From NCBI RefSeq assembly GCF_014696105.1, contig NZ_JACJPO010000038.1, positions 1 through 64,000 on the forward strand: DNA of 64,000 nt, written 5' to 3'. The translations under genes were made by a program, and so were the position numbers. Of the stretch, positions 30,596-36,361 are shown piece after piece (within the stretch, counting starts at the first letter, position 1; each line of letters starts with the position of its first letter). This DNA comes from Microcoleus sp. FACHB-1515 (GTDB lineage Bacteria > Cyanobacteriota > Cyanobacteriia > Elainellales > Elainellaceae). Under the pieces are notes generated by a model. That model made no database searches. It had not been told where the DNA came from and was given only the letters and a program-made list of their open reading frames with translations.

Positions 30596-31666
30596 TTAAT
30601 TGGATAGGAATCTCCCTTGGCGATCGATGAACCCATACCTGCCTTCAGTTTGCACCCAGGCAAATCCTTCCGAAAATTTACCGACATTGCTGAAACTTGG
30701 CTGAATAACAAAGTTTCCAGACGAGTCAATAAACCCATATTGGCGATCGATTTGCACAGCAGCAAACCCTTCAGAAAAATCAGCCGCAAAATCAAATTGA
30801 GCCGGAATTACAAATGTGCCGTTGCGATCGATATAGCCCCATTTGCTGCCAACTAAAACAGCAGCAAAACCGCCTGAGAAATCCATTGCAAAATCAAACT
30901 GCGGCGCGATTTTGAGGCTGCCAGAGGCGTCCACATAGCCCCACTGTGATCCCTTGCGAATTCGGCCTAATCCCTCTGCAAAGGTAAATGCACCATCAAA
31001 TTGTGGTGCGATCGCCATCTTGCCTTCCCGATCGATATAGCCCCATTGATTGCCATAGCGAACGGTGGCGCGATCGTCTGCAAAGCTCCAAGCATCCTCG
31101 AATTGGGCAGGAATAACGGTGCGACCTTGGCGATCGATATAGCCATATTTTCCGTCAATTTTGATGGAAGCAAGCTGTTGAGAAAAATCGCCTGCTAGAT
31201 CGAATTGCGGTTCAATTTCTAGCTCGCCTGCTCGATTGATGTAGCCGTATTTTGTCCCCATGCGGACAGCGGCAAGTCCGTCTTGAAATGAGTTAGCGCT
31301 GAGATATTGCGGGTCAACGATTATCGTTCCAGCCGTATCAATATAGCCGCTAATGTTGTTGACTCTAGCAACAGCTCGCTGCTCAGAGAAAGCAGAAATA
31401 CCGTCGAAATCCGGATTGACTTCGATCGCGATACTGCCCGATCGATCGATATAGCCAAAGCGGTCTGTAATTCGGACAGCGGCGAATCCTTCGGAAAAAT
31501 CAGCGGCAAAATCAAAGGGAAAAGATGAGGGCATCGCAGCGGAAATTGGAGAAACAACCATTGCAGATCGATCGGATGCAGGACGATTGGCGGCAGACGA
31601 CGCAAAATTGCAGGCAGCAAAGGTCAAGGCGATCGCAACGAGCAGAGTCAATCGGAGGAGCAACAT
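30596..31666 (-). CDS. WG-repeat lipoprotein, 356 aa
   Basis: N-terminal lipoprotein signal MLLLRLTLLVAIALTFAAC places Cys19 as the lipid attachment site, so the protein sits in a membrane facing the periplasm. The rest is about ten WG/KWG-type beta repeats, each with a Gly-Tyr-Ile-Asp core (KYGYIDRQGRTVIPAQFEDA, QWGYVDASGSLKIAPQFDFA). WG repeats form propeller-like folds and function as binding modules (family knowledge). The minus-strand DNA carries the corresponding repeated GATCGATAT, which explains its internal near-repeats. No neighbour gives a role. Confidence 0.85.
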   Translation of the reverse strand: MLLLRLTLLVAIALTFAACNFASSAANRPASDRSAMVVSPISAAMPSSFPFDFAADFSEGFAAVRITDRFGYIDRSGSIAIEVNPDFDGISAFSEQRAVARVNNISGYIDTAGTIIVDPQYLSANSFQDGLAAVRMGTKYGYINRAGELEIEPQFDLAGDFSQQLASIKIDGKYGYIDRQGRTVIPAQFEDAWSFADDRATVRYGNQWGYIDREGKMAIAPQFDGAFTFAEGLGRIRKGSQWGYVDASGSLKIAPQFDFAMDFSGGFAAVLVGSKWGYIDRNGTFVIPAQFDFAADFSEGFAAVQIDRQYGFIDSSGNFVIQPSFSNVGKFSEGFAWVQTEGRYGFIDRQGRFLSN

Positions 31667-31952: not shown

Positions 31953-34900
31953 ATGTTTCAAACTATGCTTAATGCGGCATTGCCCTTGCAGTTTTTAGCG
32001 ACGGCAGTGGTTGCTGAACCCGCAAGACCCGAAGATGCGTCGCTGGTATTTTCTGGCCCGCGCTTTTGGATTGCGGTCATTTCAGGAATTCTTTTAGCTT
32101 TTGCATTTCAGATTGTCCTGACCAATTTATCGGTCGCCACCGGAATTTCGATTCTGGGCAAATCTTCAGATCACGATGACCACGACGACCACAAATCCGG
32201 CAGCTTCGGCTCAACCGTGAAAAAAATCGGCGCAGCCGTAGGCATTTGGACACTTGTTACCGTCACGCTGGCGTTGTTTTTCGCCTGCTATCTCGCCGTC
32301 AAGCTCAGCTTGCTCTCTGATGACGGACTGGGCGCGATCGTCGGCCTTGTCATCTGGGCGGGCTACTACTGCCTGTTGGTTTTCTTCAGTTCCACAACGG
32401 TCGGATCGCTGATCGGCTCGGTTGTGAATTCGGCGACATCAGGTTTCCAGGCAATTTTGGGAACGGCGACGGCAGCTTTGGGTGGACGTGCCGCGAGCAA
32501 TCAGGTCGTTGCCACTGCCGAAGCCGCCGCCGCTGCCGTGCGCCGCGAACTCGTGCCCAACGTTGATCCCGGTCGCGTTCGAGACACGATCGAAGACTAC
32601 ATCGATCGCATTCGTCCCGCCGATCTGGACATCGCCAGCATTCGCCGCGAATTCGAGTCGATTTTGAGCGATCCCGAAGTGCGGTCGATGGTGGGGCCGC
32701 AAGGCGTTCAGGTCGATCGCCAGAAATTCGTCGATCTGGTCAGCAGCCGCACCGATTTGTCGAAGCGCGATGTCGATCGAATTGCCGCGCAGCTTGAGTC
32801 GGTTTGGCAGCAAACTTTGGGCAGAACGCAGCCTGGACAAGAGCCAAAGCCGGATCAGATGACCCAACTGATCGACTATTTGCGATCGACGCAGGAAGGC
32901 CAAATCGACAGCAAAGAAGTGTCGAACAAGCTCGACCAGTTGATTGCTGAAATCCGCAACTCGCGTCAAACCGAGCAGCAAAGCGACGAGCAGCAAAATA
33001 AATCGAGGTCGCGTCTGCAAGCAATTCAGGCGAACGTGATGCCGATCGTGGGAATGTTGATGGGTCGCACCGATCTGTCTGACCTGAGCGTTGAAAAAAT
33101 TGTTGGTCAACTGAAATCGGCACAAACAACAGTCGGGGATCAGGCAAACAAAATTGCCGCGCAAGTGTCCGATGAGCCAGTCAGTACGGTTCGCGCTGAT
33201 ATTGAAAACTACCTGCACAACGCTTATTTTTGGGAACTCAGCCGCGATGCGATCGATCGCGAATTCCGCGAGGTGATCTACGATCCCGCTGCTGATCCAA
33301 GAGCAGTGCGCGAACAGCTAGAGCGGATCAATCGATCGGATTTTGTGTCGATCTTGAGCGATCGCGGCATGTTCACGCAGGCTCGCATTCAAGAAATTGC
33401 CGATCAGCTTGAGTCGATTCGCCGCGAAGTGATCACGACCGCCCGCGCTGCGGAAGAACGTCAAGCCGCGCTCGAACTGCGTCAGATGGTGGAAACCTAC
33501 CTCACCCTGACCCCCGTAGACCGCTTCTACCCCGAAGAAATTCAGCGGGCGTTTGGCGCAATTCTCTCGGATGCCGAGGCCGATCACGACACGCTGACTT
33601 TGCGCCTGGCCGCTTACGATCGCGCCACACTGCGGGAAATTCTTTCGCGTCGATCGGACATTGCTCCTGCCCAAGTCGATCCGATTCTCGATGCGCTAGA
33701 GCAAACGCGCGATCGCGTCCTGTTCGAGTCGCAAAACCTCGCTGACCAAGCTAAGCAGCGCACCGAAGCAACCTGGACGAAGCTGCAAGACTACCTGCGA
33801 AACACGGGCAAAGACGAACTGAATCCGGATGCAATCCGAAACGAATTGCAGCTTTTGCTCAACGATCCGCAGGCGGGAATGGCCGCGCTCCGCAATCGAG
33901 CTTCGCATTTCGATCGCGACACCTTGGTACAGTTGCTCAACCAGCGGCAAGACCTGAGCGAAGACCAAATCAACGATGTCCTTAATCAGGTGGAAGGCTC
34001 GTGGTATCGCGTCACCCATGCACCGCAGCAGCTTACGGCAGCGGCCAAGGATCAATACGATCAGGTGACAAGCAGCCTCTCCGACTACCTGCGGAACACG
34101 GGCAAAGATGAACTGAATCCGGAAGGCATTCAGCGCGACCTAAACTTGCTGTTCAACGATCCGCAGGCGGGCATGTATGCACTGCGGCGGCGTTTGTCGC
34201 AGGTCGATCGCGACACGCTCGTCAAGCTGCTGAGCCAGCGTCAAGACCTGAGTGAAGAACAGGTCAACCAGGTGATCGATCAGGTGCAGGAAAATATCCG
34301 CCGCATCACCGGAGCGCCCCGCCGCCTTGCTTTGCGGACGCAGCAGCGCGTCATGGACTTCGAGACGGCGATCGAGCAATATCTCCGCAACACGGACAAA
34401 GAAGAACTCGATCCCGAAGGCATCAAGCGCGATCTGCAACTGTTGGCTCGCGATCCCCGCTTGGGCATGAGCAACTTGGGTCAGCGGCTTTCGCGCTTCG
34501 ATCGCAACACGATCGTCGCTTTGCTCTCGCAGCGTCCCGACATGACACCGGAAGAAGCCGAGCGGGTCGTGGCGCAAATTGAATCGCAGCGCGATCGAAT
34601 TTTGCTGCAACTGCAAGATGTGCAGTACCGCATCCAAGGCGCGATCGACAATATCTTCGCGCGGATTCGCCGCTACCTGAACAGCCTGGAACGGCCTGAA
34701 CTGAACTACGACAGCATCAAGGCTGACCTGCGAACGATGATGGATGATCCCCAAGCCGGATTTGACGCGCTCCGTCACCGTTTGGGACAGTTCGATCGCA
34801 ATACGCTCGTGGCTCTGCTGAGTTCGCGTCGCGACATTTCAGAGGCAGATGCCAACCGTTTAATCGATCAGGTGGAAACAGCTCGCACCAGCGTTTTGCA

Positions 34901-35075
34901 GCGTGCAGAACGCATTCAGCTTGAAACGCAGCGTCGCTTGGAAGACGTGAAGCGCCAAGCGCAAAAGCAAGCGGAAGACACGCGCAAAGCAGCCGCAACA
35001 GCAGCCTGGTGGCTGTTTGCGACCGCAGTGGTTTCGGCGATTGCTTCGGCAGTCGCGGGCGCGATCGCCGTCTAG
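31953..35075 (+). CDS. large membrane protein with eight tandem ~75-residue helical repeats
   Basis: 1040 aa. The N-terminal part has hydrophobic segments at about 36-58, 96-120 and 127-180, separated by a His/Asp-rich loop (DHDDHDDHKSG). Eight related units follow at about 213-288, 308-394, 420-496, 516-590, 614-690, 712-787, 810-885 and 908-982. Each starts Tyr-Leu-Arg-like, has DP near the middle, then FDRDTLVxLLSxR and ends in a helix ending QVE. Units 5-8 are most alike. A coiled coil (about 985-1015) and one more helix (1018-1040) end the protein. No enzyme motif is seen and function is unknown. Its own terminator follows. Confidence 0.9.
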   Translation: MFQTMLNAALPLQFLATAVVAEPARPEDASLVFSGPRFWIAVISGILLAFAFQIVLTNLSVATGISILGKSSDHDDHDDHKSGSFGSTVKKIGAAVGIWTLVTVTLALFFACYLAVKLSLLSDDGLGAIVGLVIWAGYYCLLVFFSSTTVGSLIGSVVNSATSGFQAILGTATAALGGRAASNQVVATAEAAAAAVRRELVPNVDPGRVRDTIEDYIDRIRPADLDIASIRREFESILSDPEVRSMVGPQGVQVDRQKFVDLVSSRTDLSKRDVDRIAAQLESVWQQTLGRTQPGQEPKPDQMTQLIDYLRSTQEGQIDSKEVSNKLDQLIAEIRNSRQTEQQSDEQQNKSRSRLQAIQANVMPIVGMLMGRTDLSDLSVEKIVGQLKSAQTTVGDQANKIAAQVSDEPVSTVRADIENYLHNAYFWELSRDAIDREFREVIYDPAADPRAVREQLERINRSDFVSILSDRGMFTQARIQEIADQLESIRREVITTARAAEERQAALELRQMVETYLTLTPVDRFYPEEIQRAFGAILSDAEADHDTLTLRLAAYDRATLREILSRRSDIAPAQVDPILDALEQTRDRVLFESQNLADQAKQRTEATWTKLQDYLRNTGKDELNPDAIRNELQLLLNDPQAGMAALRNRASHFDRDTLVQLLNQRQDLSEDQINDVLNQVEGSWYRVTHAPQQLTAAAKDQYDQVTSSLSDYLRNTGKDELNPEGIQRDLNLLFNDPQAGMYALRRRLSQVDRDTLVKLLSQRQDLSEEQVNQVIDQVQENIRRITGAPRRLALRTQQRVMDFETAIEQYLRNTDKEELDPEGIKRDLQLLARDPRLGMSNLGQRLSRFDRNTIVALLSQRPDMTPEEAERVVAQIESQRDRILLQLQDVQYRIQGAIDNIFARIRRYLNSLERPELNYDSIKADLRTMMDDPQAGFDALRHRLGQFDRNTLVALLSSRRDISEADANRLIDQVETARTSVLQRAERIQLETQRRLEDVKRQAQKQAEDTRKAAATAAWWLFATAVVSAIASAVAGAIAV

Positions 35076-35103: not shown

Positions 35104-35130
35104 AAGCTCCTCAGTTGAGGAGCTTTTTTT
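35104..35130 (+). terminator. intrinsic terminator of the repeat membrane protein gene
   Basis: AAGCTCCTC and GAGGAGCTT form a 9-bp stem with an AGTT loop, followed by TTTTTTT. It lies about 30 bp after the stop at 35075. Confidence 0.85.
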
Positions 35131-35218: not shown

Positions 35219-36361
35219 ATGATCCAAATTCTAACAGTTGACGATGATCCGATTATTCAAATGGTGCTGAAGCGCACACTTGAAGAACAAGGCTATGAAG
35301 TGATTGCAGCCCAAAATGGGGAGGAAGGTTTAGTTTTAGCTCAGCAATTTCAGCCCGCACTGATCTTGTGTGACTGGCAAATGGACGGAATTGACGGGCT
35401 AGAAGTTTGTCGGCAAATTAAATCCAATCCTGCTTTGTCTAGCACCTTTTTTATTTTGCTGACCGCTCGAACTGCGATCGCCGATCGCATCATTGGACTC
35501 GATGCTGGAGCCGATGAATTTTTGCCCAAACCGATCGAAGTGAACGAGCTAAAAGCCAGAGTTCGCGCCGGATTGCGGCTGTATCGATCGAATCAAGAAC
35601 TGCAAAAACTCGCCGCCGATTTACAGCTTCAAACGCAGCGACTTGAAGCGGAATTTGCCGAAGCTGCGGATTATGTGCGATCGCTTTTACCAACCGCAAT
35701 GGCTGGAAAAGTATCGATCGATTCGCGCTTTTTGCCGTCTCAGCAGTTGGGTGGCGACTGTTTCGATTACTTCTGGCTTGATCCAGACTATCTTGCTTTT
35801 TATTTGCTTGATGTGTCAGGACACGGACTAAAATCCGCGCTCACTTCCGTATCGATTCAAAATTTGCTGCAATCGCGATCGCTACCCGAAACGAATTTCT
35901 ATCAGCCGCAAGCGGTTTTAACCGCGCTCAATGATACGTTTCAAATGAGCGATCATGGCGATCAATATTTCACCATTTGGTATGGCGTTTATAACTGCCT
36001 GACGCAGCAGCTAACTTACGCCAGTGCAGGTCATCCGCCTGCAATTTTGTTTCATGAAACAAACGTGCAGCTTCTCAAAACTGCTGGAGTGCCGATCGGT
36101 TTTTTTGACGGCGTGCAGTATGCCTGCGATCGATTCACAATTCTTCCTAACAGCACGCTTTATGTATTTAGCGACGGCATTTATGAACTGCGGCAGCAAA
36201 AAGACTGGCGCCTCGAAGATTTCGTCAATCTAATTCAAACTTGTCATCAGCAGGGCAGCGATCGCCTGGAAGAAATTTTGCAGCGGATTCAGCAGCTTAA
36301 CCATTTTGAACCCTTGAAAGACGATTGTTCGCTGTTACAGTTGCGCTTTGGCAAATCCTGA
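35219..36361 (+). CDS. response regulator with PP2C-type (RsbU-like) phosphatase output
   Basis: 380 aa. Residues 1-120 form a receiver: acidic pocket DDD, phospho-Asp in ILCDWQM (near 54), Thr/Ser in LLTARTA and Lys in FLPKPIEV. A coiled linker (about 125-150) leads to a SpoIIE/PP2C phosphatase (about 155-375): QQLGGDCFDYFWLD, LDVSGHGLKSAL, YASAGHPPAI and FSDGIYE carry metal-ligand Asp and Gly motifs. It should dephosphorylate an anti-anti-sigma factor under phosphorelay control. No cognate STAS gene lies nearby. Start ATG 35219 fits. Confidence 0.92.
   Translation: MIQILTVDDDPIIQMVLKRTLEEQGYEVIAAQNGEEGLVLAQQFQPALILCDWQMDGIDGLEVCRQIKSNPALSSTFFILLTARTAIADRIIGLDAGADEFLPKPIEVNELKARVRAGLRLYRSNQELQKLAADLQLQTQRLEAEFAEAADYVRSLLPTAMAGKVSIDSRFLPSQQLGGDCFDYFWLDPDYLAFYLLDVSGHGLKSALTSVSIQNLLQSRSLPETNFYQPQAVLTALNDTFQMSDHGDQYFTIWYGVYNCLTQQLTYASAGHPPAILFHETNVQLLKTAGVPIGFFDGVQYACDRFTILPNSTLYVFSDGIYELRQQKDWRLEDFVNLIQTCHQQGSDRLEEILQRIQQLNHFEPLKDDCSLLQLRFGKS

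Follow-up and report, generated by a model that had tools for sequence, protein, structure and literature searches.

The gene at positions 31953-35075 on the forward strand of the window (the 64,000-nt stretch of Microcoleus sp. FACHB-1515 that was analyzed) encodes a 1040-residue membrane protein, in which eight related units with a period of 98 residues are flanked by three transmembrane (TM) helices at the N-terminal end and a single one at the C-terminal end. With a probability of about 0.5, the protein is a fixed-length, doubly membrane-anchored helical scaffold or spacer of the stressed plasma or thylakoid membrane. The anatomy is well supported, the function weakly supported, and the mechanism presented below is one that we infer. 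The features of the gene and its 3' flank are as follows.

31953-35075, forward strand: entire gene for the predicted membrane-anchored rod protein of eight helical units, 1040 aa (open reading frame; relatives)
32058-32132, forward strand: TM1, residues 36-60 (hydropathy; helix in the model; in-register alignment with PhnA-like TM1)
32223-32309, forward strand: TM2, residues 91-119 (hydropathy; in-register alignment)
32322-32393, forward strand: TM3, residues 124-147 (hydropathy; in-register alignment)
32397-32489, forward strand: Gly/Ser/Ala-rich helix after TM3, residues 149-179 (modelled helix, low confidence; partly hydrophobic)
32589-32843, forward strand: unit 1, residues 213-297 (profile of units 5-8, 49.7 bits)
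32868-33164, forward strand: unit 2, residues 306-404, the most diverged (20.0 bits; shuffled maximum 10.4)
33201-33461, forward strand: unit 3, residues 417-503 (47.8 bits; PHROG 379 match at 451-494)
33489-33749, forward strand: unit 4, residues 513-599 (50.7 bits)
33783-34043, forward strand: unit 5, residues 611-697 (in the training profile)
34077-34337, forward strand: unit 6, residues 709-795, 62% identical to unit 5 (in the training profile)
34371-34631, forward strand: unit 7, residues 807-893 (in the training profile)
34665-34925, forward strand: unit 8, residues 905-991 (in the training profile)
34797-34955, forward strand: match to PF00216, the HU family of Pfam, at residues 949-1001 (limited to a helix hairpin; beta arm lacking)
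34989-35072, forward strand: C-terminal TM helix, residues 1013-1040 (hydropathy; invariant columns)
35104-35130, forward strand: likely intrinsic terminator, AAGCTCCTC-AGTT-GAGGAGCTT and a T run (direct reading of the sequence)

The open reading frame, its coordinates and its length were confirmed. The proposal in the first-pass annotation that the gene is transcriptionally self-contained is plausible: the upstream neighbor is divergent and lies across a 286-nt gap, and a hairpin with a T run follows the gene at about 35104-35130. This hairpin was missing from the list produced by a pattern scan for terminators. The product of the divergent neighbor (30596-31666, reverse strand) carries WG repeats (PF14903, nine stretches) and has an N-terminus resembling that of a lipoprotein, while that of the downstream gene (35219-36361, forward strand) combines response-regulator and SpoIIE-type PP2C phosphatase domains in an RssB-like layout. 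Adjacency to the eight-unit orthologues was not kept for either gene.

The repeat array was analyzed within the protein itself and across its orthologues. Self-comparison gave diagonals at 98, 196, 294, 392, 595 and 693 residues; the period is therefore 98 residues, with a conserved core of approximately 87 residues, rather than the ∼75 residues originally assigned. That the eight units are truly related was borne out by a profile trained on units 5-8 only, from 30 family members, which recovered units 1-4 with 49.7, 20.0, 47.8 and 50.7 bits, respectively, beyond the maximum of 10.4 bits obtained with 1000 shuffled copies. Units 5-8 are mutually the most alike, as had been noted, with 39-62% identity versus 16-34% in pairs that involve units 1-4. 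The recent duplication of units 5-8 suggested earlier was ruled out, since the units are orthologous by position: among the 30 family members, the closest match of almost every unit was the same-numbered unit in another species. Absence of the repeats from orthologues had been raised as the argument that could overturn the array, and the unit count was eight in all 94 orthologues examined, in most of which the spacing across units 4-8 was 98 residues, the rest being within a few residues of that value. In view of this constant count and the unit-by-unit orthology, the array is ancestral and its duplication not recent, and the 62% identity between units 5 and 6 of the window protein is no sign of a recent event. 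A period of 98 residues corresponds to 14 heptads, which would preserve a coiled-coil register from one unit to the next.

Hydropathy analysis of the 1040-residue protein delineated hydrophobic segments at residues 36-60, 91-119 and 124-159 near the N-terminus and at residues 1013-1040 at the C-terminus. The helices said to frame the units thus correspond to three N-terminal TM helices with a Gly/Ala-rich helix, and to one C-terminal TM helix. The Gly/Ser/Ala-rich helix (residues 149-179) is possibly a short fourth membrane segment. In the columns of the family alignment, the start of the C-terminal TM helix is marked by a near-invariant TRKAAA..AWW.F motif. A His/Asp-rich loop, initially considered a potential metal binder, proved not to be conserved (mean of 0.86 His, with no His in 21 of 58), and metal binding was dropped.

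AlphaFold was applied to the full-length protein (30 sequences) and to units 7-8 plus the C-terminus (61 sequences). Both models were all-helical, with mean pLDDT values of 60 and 64, respectively; the rod shape stays a prediction owing to this low to middling confidence. The modelled unit comprises three short helices and one helix of ∼45 residues, and in the whole-protein model the best-modelled part was units 3-4 (pLDDT mostly 73-91). Family searches of the protein gave no enzyme family, consistent with the reported lack of an enzyme motif. The claim of an undescribed scaffold was held to depend on the unit matching no characterized fold, and searches of the PDB by sequence and by fold gave nothing above noise, with no significant relative in a Foldseek comparison of the models. 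The two-unit model came closest in Foldseek to designed rods made by fusing three-helix modules of Protein A (PDB 5h7a and 5h7b), in which three-helix beads are likewise coupled through a shared long helix; with E about 0.1 and a TM-score below 0.2, this likeness is an analogy only. Spectrin-like repeats, i.e., three-helix coiled-coil repeats of ∼106 residues with a shared linker helix, were also compared: the modelled unit has one long and three short helices, and the 1040-residue protein gave neither a Pfam spectrin match nor a confident PDB fold match.

Relatives were found in 41 of 60 related genomes and, in a search of genome contigs, at 516 loci. Among 291 high-completeness genomes spanning the phylum, 43 had relatives, and the carriers were mostly larger than 4.5 Mb. 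Named carriers include Nostoc, Fischerella, Scytonema, Tolypothrix, Trichocoleus, Gloeocapsopsis and members of the Leptolyngbyaceae. This large membrane protein of many filamentous and other complex cyanobacteria appears to be without a described function; the literature, broader searches and guessed Anabaena locus tags yielded no paper on the eight-unit protein. Several paralogues per genome are common in the carriers, and every size shares both ends. The sizes include ∼920-1100 aa (roughly five to seven recognizable units), 734 aa (three units) and 495-590 aa (one recognizable unit), and lengths intermediate between the short and eight-unit forms are about 500-740 aa. Cyanobacterial proteins of ∼220 aa have the N-terminal region in common with the eight-unit protein and a hydrophobic helix at their C-terminal end. 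The family thereby forms a natural size series, with no units, one to three, and up to eight. The window genome carries a short paralogue of its own (∼220 aa; G000:C6, L004:1270-1962, reverse strand), and 19 further loci of this type are among L196-L215.

A wider kinship became apparent from a tblastn search of 72,556 plasmid records, in which all of the significant matches were alphaproteobacterial and, where annotated, mostly PhnA-like or hypothetical. The N-terminal TM region matched the family of PhnA-like and short membrane proteins with a tblastn E of 4e-7 and profile HMM scores of 30-40 bits. The N-terminal TM helices were aligned in register by hhalign with those of the PhnA-like (99% probability) and short cyanobacterial proteins (97%), in pairwise comparisons whose significance is uncalibrated for membrane segments. 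The alignment to the PhnA-like proteins runs on into unit 1, and a second, weaker match connects unit 8 and the C-terminal TM helix with the PhnA-like spacer and C-terminal TM helix (89.5%). Since tblastn, HMM and architecture agree, common descent with the PhnA-like proteins is the simplest reading, whereby the eight-unit protein would be an expanded relative of the ∼300-aa PhnA-like and ∼220-aa cyanobacterial membrane proteins. The family would then join uncharacterized proteobacterial stress-membrane proteins to photosynthetic bacteria.

The PhnA-like proteins (e.g., WP_080623361.1 from Paracoccus yeei and WP_232389167.1 from Methylobacterium currus) are themselves uncharacterized. Their name is a product label and probably a carried-over misnomer, and literature searches for a membrane PhnA-like family retrieved no paper. 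They resemble the eight-unit protein in their three N-terminal TM helices, helical spacer and C-terminal TM helix, but are only ∼300 aa long, with at most one degenerate unit-like hairpin in the spacer instead of eight units; moreover, the opposite orientation is predicted from their charge, and their genes occur in stress-gene islands. The short cyanobacterial proteins share the N-terminal TM region and the C-terminal TM helix, but are devoid of repeat units and have the opposite predicted topology, and Usp or PRC-barrel/DUF2382 genes adjoin some of their loci. The eight-unit protein retains one family trait, a helical spacer that ends in a C-terminal TM helix, as seen in hydropathy and in the hhalign match, whereas at 1040 aa and eight units it departs from the short spacer and total length of about 220-320 aa of the small members.

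The predicted topology also sets the large and small members apart. Positive charges in the long members lie at three places: within loop 1, behind TM3 and ahead of the C-terminal TM helix. The bias in favor of a cytoplasmic rod was seen in 70 of 70 long sequences in one count and in 92 of 94 in another, and again in 16 of 16 medium-sized and other long paralogues. The short cyanobacterial proteins showed the reverse bias in 19 of 19 cases, as did the proteobacterial PhnA-like proteins in 5 of 7 (with two ties) or, in a cruder count, in 7 of 10 (two ties, one opposed). From charge counts alone, the positive-inside rule predicts that the long members have the N-terminus out, the rod in the cytoplasm and the C-terminus out. 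The charge distribution of the small relatives predicts an N-terminus inside and a spacer facing outward, an arrangement that the 92 of 94 sequences reverse. If this prediction is right, the family inverted its topology on gaining units, and would represent a candidate case of topology inversion inside one protein family.

The gene neighborhoods of the small members often include general-stress genes. The proteobacterial PhnA-like genes are accompanied by genes for YsnF/AvaK, CsbD, GlsB/YeaQ/YmgE, DUF892, cation:proton antiporters and response regulators, and at five plasmid loci (L116, L169, L171, L172 and L175) they lie within general-stress islands (YsnF/AvaK, CsbD, GlsB/YeaQ/YmgE). A PRC-barrel/DUF2382 (YsnF/AvaK-type) gene adjoins the short cyanobacterial gene in 5 of 20 loci, and a gene for a universal stress protein (Usp) follows the short copy in the window genome. 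Judging by these contexts, the small members seem to belong to a general stress set. A stress role for the eight-unit protein is suggested by its relatives only.

In the Nostocales and allied genera, the eight-unit gene has a conserved, almost constant divergent partner, namely the photoprotective high-light-inducible protein (HLIP) genes. Among the named loci with at least 1200 bp of upstream sequence (n=69), divergent HLIP genes occurred within 2 kb of the eight-unit gene in 60, which do not represent 60 independent events, since the Nostocales loci share ancestry. These neighbors are one-helix proteins of LHC-type identity, encoded by one to three tandem genes (L034-L113, e.g., L037, L050, L079 and L084), and the exceptions to the pairing are mostly Leptolyngbya-like organisms. 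Beyond the HLIP genes the flanking genes vary, in two or more arrangements on the upstream side and many on the downstream side; as the more distant genes differ between loci, the pair has evidently been conserved through rearrangement. The HLR1 motif, through which RpaB controls light-responsive genes, hli genes among them (motif definition, PMC13421787), usually lies between the divergent genes. With up to two mismatches, it was present within the upstream 700 bp at 46 named loci out of 68, versus 5.0 expected, and may serve the HLIP gene alone. For the window gene and its close relatives, the upstream motif was found in 0 of 27; no HLIP gene was observed near the eight-unit gene among 20 loci spanning up to 15 kb from the window's own (Leptolyngbya-like) family, nor were any conserved neighbors, general-stress genes included. 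The link to light therefore characterizes the Nostocales and allies. Stress-induced Nostoc genes have been described that include one for a four-TM protein near an HLIP (PMC7660261); no link between that protein and the eight-unit family was found.

Taken as a structural, non-enzymatic membrane protein, the product would be anchored at both ends of a rod of ∼790 residues by its three N-terminal and one C-terminal TM helices in the plasma or thylakoid membrane. The rod would be all-helical, consisting of eight 98-residue units, with the ∼45-residue helix of each unit continuing into the next, and by the positive-inside rule it would lie on the cytoplasmic side. The small stress-associated relatives would keep the same ends with a short spacer, of which the eight-unit form would be the expansion, and the resulting scaffold or spacer of set length would hold partners or membrane surfaces at a fixed distance. 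Rod shape, membrane side and scaffolding are thus all presumptive. The undescribed envelope or thylakoid scaffold envisaged at the outset is still the best class of explanation, given that no enzyme family or PDB relative was found, although the unit length, recent duplication and metal loop that accompanied it did not survive. If the protein does space or scaffold thylakoids, this would bear on the organization and protection of cyanobacterial thylakoids.

Three rival functions were considered, here in order of falling likelihood. A doubly membrane-anchored helical rod could also belong to a stress sensor or signalling receptor, whose N-terminal TM bundle would sense the state of the membrane and whose rod would relay it to partners, as in chemoreceptors or tethered adaptors. 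Response regulators are common beside the proteobacterial relatives, and a gene for a response regulator/PP2C-type phosphatase lies downstream in the window; however, that regulator is not conserved in the relatives, and the protein has no kinase, HAMP, MA or PAS family match, such that a receptor appears unlikely. A somewhat smaller chance is given to an apolipoprotein-like surface protein, the amphipathic long helices of which would lie on a membrane or lipid droplet and stabilize it under stress. Pfam Apolipoprotein A1/A4/E matched 15 of 30 family members, and ApoA-I chains were among the best PDB profile matches (E 0.0014), but such matches are typical for helices rich in Gln, Glu and Arg. 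The hydrophobic moments were mostly within the shuffled expectation (z above 2 in 2 of 6 long helices), and the period is 98 residues, not the 11/22-residue amphipathic periodicity of PF01442.

The least likely of the rivals, and quite improbable, is a membrane-tethered DNA-binding or nucleoid-anchoring protein, in which the eight units, each with an HU-like element, would anchor the chromosome at the membrane. Unit 8 scored 37.9 bits with PF00216 (curated cut-off, 22.4), which matched 29 of 30 family members at E<=0.01; PHROG 379, "DNA binding protein", matched unit 3 (451-494), and the rod is predicted to be cytoplasmic. The PF00216 match, however, spans profile positions 3-55 of 90, i.e., the N-terminal helix hairpin only. 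The likeness to HU/IHF is thus to the hairpin of the dimerization body, matched by unit 8 and, in PHROGs, by unit 3; here the hairpin sits inside a helical repeat with no beta saddle, and the DNA-binding beta-ribbon arms are absent, the models showing helix in their place. Comparison with cyanobacterial HU from the same genome group by hhalign gave 2-12% probability over 27-35 columns, again confined to the hairpin, and acidic residues outnumber basic ones in the rod (136 D+E versus 112 K+R). Because the match covers the helix hairpin only and profile-profile support is weak, DNA binding is unsupported, and a function derived from the Pfam HU match was dropped.

A further reading, as a molecular ruler, is also doubtful, being placed between the lipid-binding and DNA-anchoring alternatives. 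Here, the N- and C-terminal anchors would lie in two different membranes, either neighboring thylakoids or a thylakoid and the plasma membrane, and the eight 98-residue units would set the gap between them. The role would have been gained with the topology inversion, as the spacer turned cytoplasmic, and other unit numbers would give other distances. A defence or phage origin was rejected: PADLOC gave nothing beyond a weak match to Csn2 on helical sequence, and there was no phage homologue. In one draft genome of the window's genus (G001:C306, L029), the orthologue is broken into three fragments that lie in different frames, most probably as a result of assembly or sequencing errors.
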